Below are positions 15,655 through 22,487 of a stretch of 64,000 nt of DNA, piece by piece. Source of the DNA: Patescibacteria group bacterium (lineage in GTDB: Bacteria > Patescibacteriota > Microgenomatia > UBA1406 > GWC2-37-13); the NCBI GenBank assembly GCA_026004455.1, contig BPJE01000001.1, forward strand, positions 248,001 through 312,000. The letters run 5' to 3'. The stretch's first letter is position 1; every line of letters begins with the position of its first letter. Under the pieces are notes generated by a model, which ran no database searches, had not been told where the DNA came from, and saw only the letters and a program-made list of their open reading frames with translations. Position numbers and translations under genes: made by a program.

Positions 15655-16368
15655 TTATAACCAATTAAAAGTAAATTGATAAATTTTTCTAAATTCTATT
15701 TTCATTACTTTTGTTTTTTTCCCAAAAAAATTTAAACAATCTTTTTCTAGAAATAAGCCATTAGCTGAAGATAAAATAAAAAAATCATCGGTTAAACCAT
15801 AATATAATTGATAGTAATCCTTAAATTCATTAGCTTCTGAATAAACATAAAGATTATTTCTAAAATACAATGCCATATTAAAACCAAAAATTTTTTTACT
15901 ATTTTTTTTAATTGTATCAACCGCTTTAAGAATCGCGCTTTTTAAATTAAAATCAATCTGATATTTTTCAATTAAAGATAAAATTTTTCGTGCTCCTACT
16001 TCTCCGTCGAGTTTAAAAGGAATTTTTACCTTACTTACCATTCCATTAAAAACATAAATAAAATTTTTAGTTAAAAAAGGTTGAGTAAAATCAAGACGTA
16101 GTTTTTGAGAAAAAAAACTAGCGCTTCGACTGTGTAAAAAAATTTTTTTTGCTCGAGTAGTAAATTTTATTTTTTTTATATCTTCCCAAATAGGTTGATT
16201 TGATTTTAAAAGATAATTCCTCTCTCCATTTTCATAAAAAATACCCCAACCATCTTTTTGTTCATCTCCCTCAGGGCTAGGATTTTCTAAACTCATCGAT
16301 GCAAATTTTTTTAATACTGGCATTACTGGAAAACTTTTATTTGAAAAAACAATAGCGAATCTACACAT
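15655..16368 (-). CDS. Class II glutamine-amidotransferase-like Ntn hydrolase, last gene of the LysW operon
   Basis: About 237 residues. The start is the ATG at 16368, giving MCRFAIVF with the catalytic Cys at position 2, freed by Met removal. This is the same opening as EgtC and Dug3 (MCR...). Family landmarks are DGWGIFYENG (near 40), HSRSAS (near 79) and FNGMV (near 109, the oxyanion Asn-Gly). Class II amidotransferase domains hydrolyse the gamma-amide of glutamine; EgtC and Dug3 hydrolyse other gamma-glutamyl bonds. The gene overlaps the end of lysJ by 8 bases and so is translationally coupled to it. No synthetase domain is attached. My inference is that it may release the product from LysW in place of LysK; an ammonia-supplying role is the alternative. 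Confidence 0.8.
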   Translation of the reverse strand: MCRFAIVFSNKSFPVMPVLKKFASMSLENPSPEGDEQKDGWGIFYENGERNYLLKSNQPIWEDIKKIKFTTRAKKIFLHSRSASFFSQKLRLDFTQPFLTKNFIYVFNGMVSKVKIPFKLDGEVGARKILSLIEKYQIDFNLKSAILKAVDTIKKNSKKIFGFNMALYFRNNLYVYSEANEFKDYYQLYYGLTDDFFILSSANGLFLEKDCLNFFGKKTKVMKIEFRKIYQFTFNWL

Positions 16369-17548
16369 TATCAAATTTTAAAAAACTTTTAACAATTTTT
16401 TCAAAATGTTGATCTAAAATTTTTTTTGTTAAAATTAAAGGCGGTAAAAAACGAACAACATCATTTCTTGCCGGCAAAGCAATAATTCTATTAGTTTGCA
16501 TTTCTTTAAGAATCTTATCTCGTAAGTCTTCTCTCACTTGGACACCAATCATTAGACCCTTACCTCGCACATTTTTTATTATTTTCGATCTCAGTTTTTT
16601 TAATTTATTAAAAAAGTAGTAACCTGTATCATTAACATTATCCAAAAATTTATCATTAATTGTCTCAAAAACCGCTAAAATTCCTGCAGCTGCTAATGGA
16701 TTACCTCCAAAAGTTGAAGTTTGTAAACCTTGATATAATTGATCTGCTAAATTATTTTTTATCAAAATAGCTGAAGCTGGAATTCCACCAGCTAGTCCTT
16801 TACCTAGAAGTAAAATTTCTGGAGTAACTTTAAAAAATTCAGATGCAAAAAACTTACCCGTTCTTCCTATTCCTGTTTGTATCTCATCAATGATTACTAT
16901 AGCCTTTTTCTTTTTAGCAATTTCAAATATTTTTTCAACAAATAATTTATCAACAATATTAATTCCTCCATCGCCTTGAATTAATTCTAAAACAACTACT
17001 CCTACATCATTTTGAAATTTTCGTTCTAAATCGATAATATCATTAAATTTAACTCTTACTATGTATTTTTCTAATAAACTAGGTATGCCTTTTTTATATT
17101 TTTGTGAATCAGTGATTGCAACACTTAAAAAAGTTTTACCATGATAAGCATCAGTAAAAGCAATAATTTTTTTTCTTTTTGATAAATATAAACCTATTTT
17201 AACTGCATTGTCAACAGCCTCGGACCCAGATGAGGCGAAAATTACTTTATAACTTGCACCAAGCAACTCTTCGGTCTTTTTTTTAATTAAATATGCCGCT
17301 TGAGCCCGGGTTTCGTTACTAAAACTCCCATGAAGATTAATAAGTTTGTTAATTTGCTCTGTTAAAAATTTATTTAAAATAGGATGATGATACCCTAAAA
17401 TATTAACACCATAATTGCTACCTAAATCTAAATATTGATTGTCTTTATTATCATAAAGAAAAACCCCTCTTCCTTTTGTCAATAATAAACCTCGATTAGG
17501 ATAAGTTTTTACAATAGTTAAATTTTCCAAGAAAAAATAATCTTTCAT
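16361..17548 (-). CDS. lysJ: LysW-gamma-L-lysine/ornithine aminotransferase (ArgD/LysJ family)
   Basis: A 395-residue class III PLP aminotransferase. The PLP-binding region shows SSGSEAVDNAVKIG (near 105), the Asp of VVIIDEIQTGIGRTGKFFA (near 218) and the Schiff-base Lys in LLGKGLAGGIP (near 248). In the carrier pathway it transfers an amino group from glutamate to the LysW-bound semialdehyde. It lies between lysZ (11-base gap) and the amidohydrolase (8-base overlap). By sequence alone it could also be ArgD; the lysW-lysX context decides for the carrier-protein version. Confidence 0.88.
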   Translation of the reverse strand: MKDYFFLENLTIVKTYPNRGLLLTKGRGVFLYDNKDNQYLDLGSNYGVNILGYHHPILNKFLTEQINKLINLHGSFSNETRAQAAYLIKKKTEELLGASYKVIFASSGSEAVDNAVKIGLYLSKRKKIIAFTDAYHGKTFLSVAITDSQKYKKGIPSLLEKYIVRVKFNDIIDLERKFQNDVGVVVLELIQGDGGINIVDKLFVEKIFEIAKKKKAIVIIDEIQTGIGRTGKFFASEFFKVTPEILLLGKGLAGGIPASAILIKNNLADQLYQGLQTSTFGGNPLAAAGILAVFETINDKFLDNVNDTGYYFFNKLKKLRSKIIKNVRGKGLMIGVQVREDLRDKILKEMQTNRIIALPARNDVVRFLPPLILTKKILDQHFEKIVKSFLKFDNV

Positions 17549-17559
17549 TATTTTAAATA

Positions 17560-18372
17560 TTACAATGTAATAACTGTACCTTTTTGTTCTAATAATAATT
17601 TTCTTATTGGATAATTTACCCTTCCATCACCAAAAAAAGCTTTTTTTAAACCGTGTTCAAACGACATTTTTGTATAAATAATTTTTTTCTTCATAGTTCC
17701 CTCAGCGCTATTTAAAAAACTATCAAGTTCAAAAAATCTTATTTCTTTTACTAAAGAGTTTGGATTATTAAAATCTTTTAACAAGCCTTTGGCAGAGATA
17801 AGATAAATTAGTGTTTTTATTTTTAAGCTTTTTACTAATTGAAAAACAGCGGCATCATTATCCACATTAAGAATTTCACCTTGATTGGAAACCGCCGGTG
17901 AACAAATTACAGGAAGATAACGATAAGAAAGTAAAATTTTTAATAGTTTAATATTAACTTTTTTTATCTTGCCACTTAAATCGCCAGTTATTAATTTAAT
18001 TTTATTACCTTCTTTTACGTATAAATATTTTTTTCTCTCCGCTAACCAAATTTCTCCATCTATCCCTGATAATCCCACCGCTTTAACATCGTTTTTTATC
18101 AATAAAGAAACAAGCTTTTTGTTTATCCACCCAGCATAAGCCATTAAAAAAACCTTCATAAAATTCTCATCTGAAAAGTAACTCGTTATTCCTGATGTTG
18201 AAGTAATTGTTCTAATAGGAATTCCTAATTGCTGTGCTAATCGATTACGAAATTTGCTAGCACCATGAACTACAATTAATTGACCAGGATATTTTTTCCA
18301 CAACGAGGCTATGTCATTACAGATAGCGGAAAAATTTAAATTTTCATCACCACCTATCTTTATTAAAAACAT
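17560..18372 (-). CDS. lysZ: [LysW]-aminoadipate/glutamate kinase (LysZ)
   Basis: A 270-residue amino acid kinase of the ArgB/LysZ group, phosphorylating the side-chain carboxylate of the amino acid held on LysW. Visible are the phosphate loop IKIGGDEN (5-11), VVHGASKFRNRLAQQLG (near 34), and AVGLSGIDGEIW near 118, where the GxDG is characteristic of LysZ rather than ArgB. The C-terminal half has VDNDAAVFQLVKSLK. It follows the homocitrate-synthase-like gene after 57 bases and precedes lysJ by 11. Confidence 0.87.
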   Translation of the reverse strand: MFLIKIGGDENLNFSAICNDIASLWKKYPGQLIVVHGASKFRNRLAQQLGIPIRTITSTSGITSYFSDENFMKVFLMAYAGWINKKLVSLLIKNDVKAVGLSGIDGEIWLAERKKYLYVKEGNKIKLITGDLSGKIKKVNIKLLKILLSYRYLPVICSPAVSNQGEILNVDNDAAVFQLVKSLKIKTLIYLISAKGLLKDFNNPNSLVKEIRFFELDSFLNSAEGTMKKKIIYTKMSFEHGLKKAFFGDGRVNYPIRKLLLEQKGTVITL

Positions 18373-18429
18373 ATATTGATAAATTAAATTTATAGAAAAT
18401 TTATAATCGACGCCTAATATTTTTTTGAA

Positions 18430-19608
18430 TTATTTTTTTTGATAACCTTTACTATCAGCAATAATCATTAATATGTCTTCTGGATTATTAATTTGTTGAT
18501 ATCTAGAAAAAGTAGATTTAAACTCTTTAGTAATTATCTTTGCTTGCTCTTTGGTAATATGATAACCTTTAATTTCCTTAAGAAAATAATAGATTAAATT
18601 TGTTCCGGATAAAGGTCCTAACAAAAAAGTTGATTTATTTACACCAAATCTATGTAAAGGAATTCCTTCATAAGATTGTTTATTATTTAAAACAGCTTTT
18701 TGATGAACACCTGCAACATGAGTCCTATTGATTAAAGAAACTGGTTCTGTTGACGGTACAGGCATATTTAAAATACTACCTAAAAGAACGTTTAACAAAT
18801 AGCATAATTTTAAATCATAATTTTTTACATAATTTTTGTCTTCTAAATATAAATTTAGAAGTAAACCCGTTAACGAAGTTATTCCCGATCGCTCACCAAT
18901 ACCCAATATAGTAGTATCCACATAATTAGCGCCACTTTTTACTGCGGTTAAAGCATTAATCAAAGAAAAACCTCTAGTATTATGAAAATGAACTTCTAGA
19001 TTTACTTCAGGATATCTTTTTCGCAAATACTGAATTTTTTTCTCTACTTCTTGCGGAATAGCTATTCCCACTGTATCTGGTATTCCTAAAGTATCAACAT
19101 ATCGATGTATCGCATCATAAAGATTAAGTACCTTATTTAAATCGGATCGAAAAAAATCTTCAGCAGAAAATCTTATATATAAATCAGGATGCTGTTTTTT
19201 TAAATTTATAATAATTTTTATCACTTCATCTATTAATTTTCTTAAAGAGTTACTATAAATAGCACCACTGTATGGAGAAAGATTGAGATATAAATTTAGA
19301 CCATTAAAACCTGCTTTTAACGCTGAAAAAATATCTTCTTTTTTAATACGGCAATGGGCTAAAAATTTAACTTCTTTATATCCTAATTTTAATGCTAATG
19401 ATTTAAGAATTTCAAAATGAGATATTTCTTCTTCCGAAACTACTGGCGAAAAAAACTCAAACATTCTCACTCCTAATTTTAGTAAGTTTTGAAAAATAGC
19501 TTTTTTATCTTCTAAACTAAACTTATATTTACGGGCATCAAAAAGCAAAGAAGATTGTTGACCCTCACGAAAAGTAGTATCTATTACACCTTTAAAATTA
19601 GTTTTCAT
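18430..19608 (-). CDS. Homocitrate synthase / isopropylmalate synthase family enzyme
   Basis: A 392-residue member of the DRE-TIM metallolyase family. The start has DTTFREGQQ (residues 10-18) with the metal-binding Asp and catalytic Arg. HFHNTRG near 211 supplies two metal-binding His, and LGIGERSG near 239 is the second family signature. It lacks the LeuA regulatory dimer domain, fitting homocitrate synthase (2-oxoglutarate plus acetyl-CoA), the entry enzyme of the aminoadipate route. Citramalate or another acyl substrate cannot be excluded. Its ATG overlaps the lysY stop by four bases (ATGA). Homoaconitase and homoisocitrate dehydrogenase genes are absent from the window. Confidence 0.8.
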   Translation of the reverse strand: MKTNFKGVIDTTFREGQQSSLLFDARKYKFSLEDKKAIFQNLLKLGVRMFEFFSPVVSEEEISHFEILKSLALKLGYKEVKFLAHCRIKKEDIFSALKAGFNGLNLYLNLSPYSGAIYSNSLRKLIDEVIKIIINLKKQHPDLYIRFSAEDFFRSDLNKVLNLYDAIHRYVDTLGIPDTVGIAIPQEVEKKIQYLRKRYPEVNLEVHFHNTRGFSLINALTAVKSGANYVDTTILGIGERSGITSLTGLLLNLYLEDKNYVKNYDLKLCYLLNVLLGSILNMPVPSTEPVSLINRTHVAGVHQKAVLNNKQSYEGIPLHRFGVNKSTFLLGPLSGTNLIYYFLKEIKGYHITKEQAKIITKEFKSTFSRYQQINNPEDILMIIADSKGYQKK

Positions 19609-20657
19609 ATTGGATGTAATCCGCTAAATTCTAAACCTAAATTTTCCGGCCAGTTATACATAATATTTAAACACTGTACTGCTTGCCCGGCAGTTCCTCT
19701 TACTAAATTATCAATTGCTCCAATTAAAATTAAACGTTGACTTCTTTTATCAATATCAAAACCTATATCACAATAGTTTGTTCCCCAAAGAATTTTAGGT
19801 TCAGGATAACGATAAATTCCTGTTTTTTGTTTTACTAAACGAATAAAATATTCATTTTTATAATATTTCCGATAGGCTAACCAAATATCTTTTTCTTTTA
19901 TCTCTTTTTTTAAAAAACAGTGAATGGTGACCAAAATTCCTCGCACCATATCAATAGCAGTCGCAGAAATATCAACTCTTATTTTTTTATTAATTTTTGA
20001 AAGAAACATTTCGATCTCAGCTGTATGACGATGACCAGAAGGAAGATAAGAACGAACACAATGAGTTCTTTCTGGATGATGAGTCGCTAAAGAAAAATTT
20101 TTCCCTGATTGTGAACTACTCATTTTTGCATCAATTATAATTGGATAAGGTTTAATGAGATCCAACGCTACCAAAGGATAAAGCGTTAAGAGAGAAACTG
20201 TTGCTTCACAACCGGGAATAGCTACATAATTAGATTCTTTTATCCTCTCACGATTTAATTCAGGTAAACCATAGACAAATTTTTTTAAATATTCTGGTCG
20301 TTGGTGAGGAATTTTATACCAATTTAGCCAAACTTTATCATCTTCGAGTCGAAAATCAGCACCACAATCTATAATTTTATCGGCTAGAGAGATAAATTTA
20401 TCAATGTAATTCATAGAAACACCATTTGGCAAACAAATAAACAATACATCAACTTTGTCTTTAATATCATTAATTGAAGAAAAATCTAAATCAATCAAAC
20501 CCCTAAGATTGGGATGAATTTGAGAAACTTTTTGTCCTTTTAATCTTTCACTTGTCAAATAGGTTATTTTTACTTTTGGATGGAAAGCCAGTATCCTTAA
20601 AACCTCTCCCCCAGTATATCCTGAACCACCTATTATTCCAATTTTTAATTTTTTCAT
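19605..20657 (-). CDS. lysY: [LysW]-aminoadipate/glutamate semialdehyde dehydrogenase (LysY/ArgC family)
   Basis: A 350-residue NADPH-dependent reductase of the ArgC family. The nucleotide motif is GIIGGSGYTGGEVLRIL (8-24), the catalytic Cys lies in AIPGCEATVSLL near 148, and His in LPSGHRHTAEIE near 210. It reduces the acyl phosphate made by LysZ, still attached to LysW, to the semialdehyde. It is 15 bases from lysX and overlaps the homocitrate-synthase-like gene by four bases. It ends with a TGA stop, useful evidence that TGA is not recoded here. Confidence 0.88.
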   Translation of the reverse strand: MKKLKIGIIGGSGYTGGEVLRILAFHPKVKITYLTSERLKGQKVSQIHPNLRGLIDLDFSSINDIKDKVDVLFICLPNGVSMNYIDKFISLADKIIDCGADFRLEDDKVWLNWYKIPHQRPEYLKKFVYGLPELNRERIKESNYVAIPGCEATVSLLTLYPLVALDLIKPYPIIIDAKMSSSQSGKNFSLATHHPERTHCVRSYLPSGHRHTAEIEMFLSKINKKIRVDISATAIDMVRGILVTIHCFLKKEIKEKDIWLAYRKYYKNEYFIRLVKQKTGIYRYPEPKILWGTNYCDIGFDIDKRSQRLILIGAIDNLVRGTAGQAVQCLNIMYNWPENLGLEFSGLHPI

Positions 20658-20672
20658 GTCTATAAGTTAAAA

Positions 20673-21527
20673 CTAAATTTTATTTTTTTGAAATAAATCA
20701 ATACAATAATCAATAATCGCTCCCGAAATACTAACTCCTGTAGGCTCTTCAGAATTTTTAAACTCCATAGTATGATTTATTTCATTGATTAAATAACCCT
20801 CTTTTGTTTCAAAAATATCCATTGCTAAAATACCACCACCAACCGCTAGTGACGCTTTTTGACAAATAAGTTCTAAATCCCTATTAATTGGGCAATTAAA
20901 AGCCTTACCTCCGCGAGCGGTATTGGTTATCCAATGAGATGACTTTCGGTATATTGCTGCAATTACATTATTTCCAACACAAAAAGCTCTAATATCTCTG
21001 CCATTTTTATCAACATATTTTTGAATATAAAAAGCTTGATGATGAGGAGAAGTAAAGTGATTTTTATGTTCAATTATTGCTTCTAAGGCATCTTTATCAT
21101 TGACTTTTGCTAATAATCTTCCCCAAGAACCTAAAGTTGGCTTTATTACTACCGGAAAACCTCCCACTGATTCTACAAACTCTAGTGCCTGCGATAAAGA
21201 AAAAACAATAGCAAAAGGGATTGTGGGAACATTATTTTTTTTAAGCAAAAGAGAGGTAAAAAATTTATCCTCGCAATTTTGAGTTACTGATAAAGAATTA
21301 ACTACTTTAATTCCGCAACTTTCTAAAAAAGCAGTAAGATATCTTCCTTTAGTATTAGAAACACTACGATTAAGCGCAATATCAAAATCAAAAGGAAAAA
21401 AACTTTTCTCAAGAATTAAGTTTCTTATATCATATAACTTCAAATTTACTTTTCTTTTTTTAGCAGCTTTAATTATCAATTTCTCATCTCCTCTAATTGT
21501 GCTATGAAATAGACCTATACTAATCAT
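20673..21527 (-). CDS. lysX: LysW-aminoadipate/glutamate ligase (LysX, ATP-grasp)
   Basis: A 284-residue RimK-type ATP-grasp ligase that joins the alpha-amino group of the substrate to the side chain of the C-terminal Glu of LysW. Landmarks are the ATP-binding GGFPVVIKPTLGSWGRLLAK (near 121), RDIRAFCVGNNVIAAIYR (near 180), NTARGGKA (near 203) and the metal/product motif INEINHTMEFKNS (near 248) typical of LysX and ArgX. It is ten bases downstream of lysW. Choice between aminoadipate (lysine) and glutamate (arginine) is not readable with confidence. Confidence 0.9.
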   Translation of the reverse strand: MISIGLFHSTIRGDEKLIIKAAKKRKVNLKLYDIRNLILEKSFFPFDFDIALNRSVSNTKGRYLTAFLESCGIKVVNSLSVTQNCEDKFFTSLLLKKNNVPTIPFAIVFSLSQALEFVESVGGFPVVIKPTLGSWGRLLAKVNDKDALEAIIEHKNHFTSPHHQAFYIQKYVDKNGRDIRAFCVGNNVIAAIYRKSSHWITNTARGGKAFNCPINRDLELICQKASLAVGGGILAMDIFETKEGYLINEINHTMEFKNSEEPTGVSISGAIIDYCIDLFQKNKI

Positions 21528-21537
21528 ATATTTTTAT

Positions 21538-21711
21538 TTACTCACCCCAATCTTCTTCTACTTGAGGTGCTTCTTCTAAATCAACTTTATTTTTTTCTAA
21601 TGAAACAACAACTAAACGACTGCCACATTCTTGACAAGTAATTATTTCAGAAACTTCTAAATCATCTTGAAAATTAAATTGATTATCACAAATAGGACAT
21701 GTTCCTTTCAT
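21538..21711 (-). CDS. lysW: LysW amino-group carrier protein
   Basis: A 57-residue acidic carrier, too short for most gene finders. It begins MKGTCPICDNQF and has a second pair TCQECGSRLV, so a four-Cys zinc ribbon (Cys5, Cys8, Cys26, Cys29) is complete. It ends in VEEDWGE, the diagnostic EDWGE tail whose terminal Glu carries the growing amino acid through its gamma-carboxylate. It is the first gene of the operon and sits about 65 bases after an excellent promoter, with lysX 10 bases downstream. No Shine-Dalgarno is visible. Identification rests on the tail, the zinc ribbon and the neighbours and is very secure. Confidence 0.95.
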   Translation of the reverse strand: MKGTCPICDNQFNFQDDLEVSEIITCQECGSRLVVVSLEKNKVDLEEAPQVEEDWGE

Positions 21712-21860: not shown

Positions 21861-22487
21861 ATGAAAACTATTCAACAAACAACCCTGGAAATAATTTTAG
21901 AAAAACCAGAAATTGCTGAAATTTTGTCAACTAATTTCGTTAATATATCTTCTATTGCAAGAAAAATTAAACCTATTGTAGAAGAAAAACTCTTAAAACC
22001 AATAACATTAATAAGTATTATTATTGCCCTTAAAAGAATTAAAGAAAAAATGCCTAAAGAAGAAAGAATCTTCAATGAAATACCTGAAATTATGATTAAA
22101 TCTGGTTTTACTGAAATAATAATCGATGTTAATAAAAATCAAAAAAAAATAAACAATATGATAAGAGAAATTTTTCCAAATAAAAATTTAATATTGACTA
22201 AAGGCGATAAAGAAATTACTTTTTTAATTAATTCTAAACATTACAATAAAATAAAAAATCAATTTAAAACCAAAAAAGTAATCACAAACTTAGATATATT
22301 AACTTTAAATTTTTATGAAGACATAATTGAAATCCCAGGTGTATATTATAAAATTTTAAGAGGTTTTAAAATCAATCAAATTCCTCTAGTAGAAATTTTT
22401 TCTACTTACTCTCAATTATCATTGGTCGTTAAATCTATTCACATAGAAAAAGCAATTAAACTTTTAAAAAATATTCTAGAAATTTAA
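21861..22487 (+). CDS. Hypothetical protein with ACT-like C-terminus, divergent from the lysW operon
   Basis: About 208 residues; I took the ATG at 21861 (MKTIQQTTLEI) over the upstream ATG at 21825, whose residues are AT-spacer-like. The N-terminal 65 residues look like a helix-turn-helix-type or helical domain (ILSTNFVNISSIARKIKPIV). The C-terminal part KINQIPLVEIFSTYSQLSLV followed by a helix IEKAIKLLKNIL resembles the ACT repeat of aspartate kinases, which binds amino acids. An amino-acid-sensing regulator of the neighbouring operon is a reasonable inference, not shown. Confidence 0.55.
   Translation: MKTIQQTTLEIILEKPEIAEILSTNFVNISSIARKIKPIVEEKLLKPITLISIIIALKRIKEKMPKEERIFNEIPEIMIKSGFTEIIIDVNKNQKKINNMIREIFPNKNLILTKGDKEITFLINSKHYNKIKNQFKTKKVITNLDILTLNFYEDIIEIPGVYYKILRGFKINQIPLVEIFSTYSQLSLVVKSIHIEKAIKLLKNILEI

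Follow-up and report, generated by a model that had tools for sequence, protein, structure and literature searches.

Many uncultivated bacteria and some archaea build lysine on a small carrier protein. Here, we analyze a 64,000-nucleotide stretch of DNA (the window) from a Patescibacteria group bacterium (GenBank assembly GCA_026004455.1, contig BPJE01000001.1, positions 248,001 to 312,000 of the forward strand), in which seven genes on the minus strand, at positions 15655-21711, encode the carrier LysW, LysX, LysY, a homocitrate-synthase-type enzyme, LysZ, LysJ, and an N-terminal nucleophile (Ntn) hydrolase. We put at about 85% the probability that the hydrolase releases lysine from LysW-γ-lysine, taking over from the zinc M20 peptidase LysK. 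An initial annotation of this DNA had proposed it as the releasing enzyme, and that proposal withstood every computational test applied. What the sequence itself shows is the make-up of the operon, a hydrolase family with its distribution, the lack of LysK, the active-site residues, and the predicted fold; from these we infer the substrate, the release reaction itself, and the roles of the residues.

With the LysW α-aminoadipate (AAA) pathway of Thermus, Sulfolobus, and Thermococcus, the operon has in common LysW with its EDWGE tail, LysX with its AAA-type motif, LysY, LysZ, and LysJ. It differs in having no LysK, in whose place stands an unrelated cysteine hydrolase. This would be a known pathway with a different enzyme class at its last step, a swap that was not found in the literature searched. 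No description of the hydrolase in a LysW operon was found in the open literature; most subscription papers lay outside that search, and an earlier description is possible.

Distribution of the hydrolase and of LysK

Genomes were surveyed with LysX as bait, so that the sampling was independent of the hydrolase. In the class to which the window belongs, LysX is found in 21 of 374 genomes. The hydrolase sits in the operon at all 18 intact LysX loci, the contigs of the other three stopping before the operon ends, and LysK is in the operon of none of the 21; such was the outcome of the survey of related operons that the initial annotation had recommended. A sample of 380 genomes from the phylum added two further true operons (G145 and G295), both with the hydrolase. 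Among 195 Asgard genomes, LysK is present at most of the loci examined and the hydrolase at three, with none having both. When LysX-baited and hydrolase-seeded loci are pooled and de-duplicated, 48 have the hydrolase only, 29 have LysK only, and nine, mainly on truncated contigs, have neither. Operons carrying both genes, which the initial annotation had named as a finding that would refute its proposal, number none among the 77 loci with a releasing candidate.

In canonical operons, LysK occupies the position of the hydrolase, the order being W-X-Y-Z-J-LysK (L162, L188, L189, and L192, of which L162 and L188 are Asgard). The LysK-type Asgard genomes contain no member of the hydrolase family, only generic amidotransferases that score at most about 69 bits against 175-270 bits for the family. 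LysK exceeds its cut-off in two of 50 genomes with the hydrolase. One, a Borrarchaeota bin, also has a canonical operon at a separate place; in the other, a Chloroflexi genome, a LysK-like gene lies amid unrelated genes. No M20 peptidase at all was found in 10 of the 19 hydrolase-operon genomes tested, the same search being positive in 14 of 14 control genomes. M20-free examples include L090, whose 634-kb contig is almost the entire assembly of about 0.6 Mb, and L064/G295, which is 95% complete.

The hydrolase was found in 13 of 57 genomes, comprising that of the window and its relatives. It closes a LysW-type operon in eleven, including the window, some of these operons being cut by contig ends; the remaining two have an orphan beside a lysyl-tRNA synthetase and a generic class II protein. 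Scanning the genome contigs with the window hydrolase as a single sequence gave no matches; a profile scan of named genomes returned 56 hydrolase loci, most with LysW genes around them. The groups represented are Roizmanbacteria, Daviesbacteria, Levybacteria, Gottesmanbacteria, Dojkabacteria, and Parcubacteria, together with Aminicenantes, Acidobacteriota, Fischerbacteria, Bacteroidota, Gemmatimonadota, and others.

At nearly every locus recovered, the LysW operon has the hydrolase either as its final gene or in its interior. The gap from the preceding gene has a median of 5 nt, and the two overlap in 15 of 76 cases, by 8 nt in the window. Because the gene recurs inside the LysW operons of dozens of genomes, its presence in this one is far beyond chance. 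The commonest order is W-X-Y-Z-J-hydrolase, with the hydrolase following LysJ; the alternative, W-X-Y-hydrolase-Z-J, occurs in Bacteroidota, Gemmatimonadota, one gammaproteobacterial bin, and three Asgard genomes. The linkage of hydrolase and LysW has therefore outlasted rearrangement. In Entotheonella, LysW-X-Y and Z-J occur with no LysK, and the hydrolase is encoded elsewhere on the chromosome. An orphan hydrolase gene (L079/G094, the same locus as G033/L031; approximately 329283-329849 on contig C2 of G033) adjoins a class II lysyl-tRNA synthetase and is the only orphan in a genome without LysX. It has no MCR start, and hence no nucleophile, and from its sequence is probably decaying. Within the Asgard hydrolase-type operons, LysZ and LysJ are seemingly fused at L187 (11102-13111, where the fusion was read), and an open reading frame (ORF) matching LysJ at L186 (10476-12479) has the same size and place.

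Fold, active site, and proposed reaction of the hydrolase

The window hydrolase alone has no Pfam match at E ≤ 0.01, and its sole relevant NCBIfam match is the EgtC model TIGR03442 (27.7 bits; cut-off 218.65); PF13230 matches 22 of 42 family members. Against the PDB, a phmmer search with the single sequence gave no matches, and the family profile matched 3mdn only. An AlphaFold model made with the 42-sequence alignment has a pLDDT (predicted local distance difference test) of 93.7. Its best fold matches in the PDB are the EgtC entries 4zfl, 4zfj, and 4zfk (template modeling score about 0.73), of which 4zfl is a substrate complex, followed by phosphoribosyl pyrophosphate amidotransferase and then GlmS. 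Identity to EgtC in the structural match is about 13%.

Residues were mapped on an alignment of the family with EgtC and GlmS, whose sequences had been verified against PDB entries. The catalytic residues that are kept are the nucleophile Cys2, Arg81 (equivalent to Arg73 of GlmS), and Asn108-Gly109 (Asn98-Gly99 of GlmS). The pocket Asp of the class II amidotransferase fold binds the α-amino group of the substrate. This residue (Asp123 of GlmS, Asp133 of EgtC) is replaced by Gly, Gly125 in the window protein, in all 42 aligned members and in 103 of 103 ORFs of a redundant set, and is retained in all seven generic class II proteins taken from the searched genomes. Also, the HNG motif of EgtC is FNG in this family. 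In the model, a helix begins at residue 125, in agreement with the alignment. The glutamine contacts of asparagine synthetase are made by the equivalent Arg, Asn-Gly, and Asp (PMC11296641).

Judged by the model, the window protein is a class II (Ntn) glutamine amidotransferase in its fold, in the Cys that follows Met, in the Arg, and in the Asn-Gly oxyanion hole; judged by sequence, it lacks the Asp contact to the amino-acid head of free glutamine. Loss of the Asp with retention of the carboxylate-binding Arg fits what a peptide-linked, C-terminal γ-glutamyl substrate, as in LysW, would need. The reaction can then be envisaged as follows. LysX would couple aminoadipate to the γ-carboxylate of the C-terminal Glu of LysW, and LysZ, LysY, and LysJ would convert the LysW-bound aminoadipate into LysW-γ-lysine. 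Cys2 would attack the γ-glutamyl carbonyl, with Asn108-Gly109 as the oxyanion hole, while Arg81 would grip the free α-carboxylate of the LysW Glu and Gly125, in place of Asp, would make room for the peptide bond that links this Glu to the remainder of LysW. Lysine would depart first, and water would then free LysW from the thioester.

The initial annotation had likened the hydrolase to EgtC and Dug3, a comparison that stands for fold and chemistry and fails for orthology. EgtC (γ-glutamyl-hercynylcysteine sulfoxide amidohydrolase) has in common with it the fold without a synthetase partner domain, the MCR start, and the Cys, Arg, and Asn-Gly residues, and it hydrolyzes a γ-glutamyl amide, the type of bond proposed by analogy for the window enzyme. 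However, EgtC keeps Asp133 and HNG where the window family has Gly and FNG, and their operons differ. From its sequence, the window hydrolase is not an EgtC equivalog, either by score or by linkage to ergothioneine genes: the neighbors seen around hydrolase genes are LysW genes and lysyl-tRNA synthetases. Dug3, of the yeast glutathione-degrading DUG complex, is a class II amidotransferase-type γ-glutamyl hydrolase; it acts in a complex on glutathione and is likened to the window hydrolase by description, not by sequence. Dop, the Pup deamidase and depupylase, acts on the γ-carboxamide or isopeptide of the C-terminal Gln or Glu of its carrier. The bond is of the type proposed here, but the fold is glutamine-synthetase-like and there is no homology, making Dop an analogy only.

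If the hydrolase does release lysine, it would complete lysine synthesis, whose last step is otherwise missing, in a large set of uncultivated bacteria (Roizmanbacteria, Gottesmanbacteria, Levybacteria, and others, together with Aminicenantes/Acidobacteriota, Bacteroidota, and Gemmatimonadota) and in some Asgard archaea, organisms that lysK-based searches would wrongly score as lysine auxotrophs. In a core pathway, a cysteine amidohydrolase would have replaced a zinc peptidase to which it is not orthologous, and its family would be one of class II amidotransferases that act on the C-terminal γ-glutamyl bond of a protein rather than on free glutamine.

Weighing of alternative functions

The tail of LysW bears on a different role for the hydrolase. 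Tails of the EDWGQ type are found at L047, L058, L059, L060, L066, L067, L090, L096, L158, L186, L187, and L195 and, with LysK, at L193 and L199; the sequence suggests that such a LysW would need deamidation before LysX acts. It is conceivable, if very improbable, that the hydrolase serves to prime the carrier for LysX by deamidating the C-terminal Gln, as Dop does on Pup-Gln, with another peptidase responsible for release. The bond would be the same γ-glutamyl amide, Gln tails make up 13 of 46 in hydrolase-type operons against two of 24 in LysK-type operons, and Gln is also the last residue of the three carriers seen in Asgard operons of the hydrolase type. However, that difference is not significant (Fisher p 0.069), and the other 33 of the 46, the window's included, are already Glu-ended, yet the gene is kept. 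The Gln-ended carriers at L193 and L199 belong to one genome with no hydrolase family member and another with weak generic matches only, and the 10 M20-free genomes would be left without a release enzyme. Both functions may be combined, with the hydrolase deamidating Gln-ended LysW to the Glu form and later releasing lysine; we offer this only tentatively, the odds being somewhat against it. Such an enzyme would be deamidase and releaser for a biosynthetic carrier, a functional parallel to Dop on Pup with an unrelated fold. The idea that Gln-ended LysW is exclusive to hydrolase-type operons was ruled out by L193 and L199. Separately, L059 encodes a LysW-like carrier (1121-1291) with a DEDWGQ tail and without any zinc-binding cysteine.

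Release by an M20 peptidase encoded elsewhere has to be considered for the window's organism in particular. Its genome (895 kb in five contigs, 92% complete) has eight M20 matches, none of which exceeds the cut-off of the LysK/N-acetyl-lysine-deacetylase model (best 78 against 163 bits), and the full-length proteins are nearer to DapE/ArgE, dipeptidase, or PepT models. The initial annotation had asked whether another part of the genome encodes LysK. Nothing there scores above cut-off as a LysK-subfamily protein, but M20 peptidases of other kinds are present, and this genome alone is therefore not decisive. One of them, of the DapE/ArgE type, might release lysine, leaving the hydrolase an accessory task such as clearing dead-end LysW adducts. 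Some of these M20 genes are weakly similar to the LysK model, and characterized LysK and DapE/ArgE are homologues (PMC10433800). Against this, one M20 gene has a GCS2-type ligase, an enolase-superfamily protein, and aminotransferases as neighbors, the others lie by unrelated genes, and none is by LysW genes; furthermore, there are relatives that share this operon and lack M20 genes. We consider an M20 enzyme in this role a poor prospect. An ordinary small-molecule glutaminase or γ-glutamyl amidohydrolase of the EgtC/Dug3 kind, housed in the operon and not acting on LysW, appears less credible still: EgtC, the top fold match, does act on a small γ-glutamyl compound, but the TIGR03442 score is far below cut-off, the pocket Asp is Gly in every family member and HNG is changed to FNG, and the linkage to LysW genes is strict and seen in two gene orders.

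Several observations weigh against release of lysine by the hydrolase or temper the evidence for it. The DapE/ArgE-like M20 genes of the window's own genome could perform the release. The M20-free result covers M20 only, and peptidases of other classes may be present in those genomes. An M20 gene lies near one hydrolase-type locus (L047), and G092 has the hydrolase plus a LysK-subfamily gene outside any LysW context. Incompleteness of metagenome-assembled genomes weakens every single absence. The taxon labels of three short contigs, Borrarchaeota (L058), Dehalococcoidia (L060), and Woesearchaeota (L051), are likely binning errors and were excluded as taxonomic evidence. Finally, a LysX tree that includes characterized LysX proteins forces only two changes of hydrolase/LysK label; independent swaps are therefore few, and the 77 loci do not count as 77 independent cases of exclusion. 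A clean division of LysX into hydrolase and LysK types was dropped once the T. thermophilus and T. kodakarensis proteins had been added. Both are from LysK users and fall beside or inside the hydrolase clade, the Thermococcus placement being weakly supported; LysX is therefore not split simply by releasing enzyme.

Genes of the operon, its product, and neighboring genes

The seven tightly packed LysW-pathway genes described in the initial annotation are present, all on the minus strand, and its finding that lysK is missing from the operon holds. lysW (21711-21538) matches PF21344 (E 3e-14) and TIGR01206 (53.7 bits, over the cut-off of 53.2), and the C terminus of its product reads EDWGE. It is followed by lysX, for the LysW-aminoadipate ligase (21527-20673; TIGR02144, 308 bits against a cut-off of 275.6), and lysY, for an ArgC-type semialdehyde dehydrogenase (20657-19605; argC model TIGR01850, 395 bits, over cut-off). 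The homocitrate-synthase-type enzyme (19608-18430), with HMGL-like and HCS_D2 domains (PF00682 and PF22617), has the homocitrate-synthase model TIGR02146 as its top match, at 218 bits and under the cut-off of 413.6. lysZ, for the [LysW]-aminoadipate kinase (18372-17560), scores 255 bits with NF010659, over the cut-off of 223, and lysJ, for a class III aminotransferase (17548-16361), 317 bits with TIGR00707, the LysJ models NF045491 and NF042418 being under their cut-offs. The last gene (16368-15655) encodes the proposed LysW-γ-lysine hydrolase of 237 residues, assigned to the class II amidotransferase fold from the model, fold matches, and family alignment. It starts with ATG-TGT-AGA (MCR) at 16368-16360, and the 8-nt overlap with the end of lysJ at 16361 is exactly as first reported. 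By sequence, this is the gene set of the LysW carrier-protein pathway (EDWGE-type tail, GSWGR LysX with a substrate signature, LysY, LysZ, and LysJ); a LysK of the TIGR01902 subfamily is absent from the operon and has no match over cut-off in the genome, at the completeness given above.

The LysW tail and LysX motifs were judged as described in PMC10433800. Window LysX has the GSWGR motif and the signature HWITNTARGG, the latter common to the T. thermophilus and T. kodakarensis enzymes (aligned with 3vpd, 1uc8, and 5k2m). Several hydrolase-type operons contain the complete set of homocitrate synthase, homoaconitase large and small subunits, and homoisocitrate dehydrogenase, and a class I or II lysyl-tRNA synthetase adjoins many, class I often downstream. 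The AAA-type LysX motif, the aminoadipate-forming genes of sister operons, and the lysyl-tRNA synthetase neighbors point to lysine as the product. In the window's organism, the homoaconitase and homoisocitrate dehydrogenase steps would fall to a fused aconitase-family protein and Iso_dh, which lie within the leucine/isoleucine cluster (C1, about 215-222 kb) and have aminotransferases beside them.

A search around the operon for riboswitches and other RNA families was negative. A divergent gene on the plus strand (21861-22487), kept upstream of many hydrolase-type LysW operons, encodes four N-terminal helices and two aspartokinase-like ACT domains (alignment A5 of 18 loci), with ACT_7/ACT_9 matches in relatives. 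Its model (pLDDT 85.8) has aspartokinase regulatory domains as the best PDB matches, and the protein is probably an amino-acid-sensing regulator of the operon, which fits amino-acid feedback.

Elsewhere in the same genome, two near-identical M20 genes lie about 20 kb apart on C1 (L181 and L182; about 312-319 kb and 333-341 kb). The context of the one that adjoins the GCS2-type ligase suggests an uncharacterized peptide or acyl-amino-acid pathway. On C4, at about 28.4-29.8 kb (L005, L006, and L008), M20-family genes are split over several frames and are apparently degraded.

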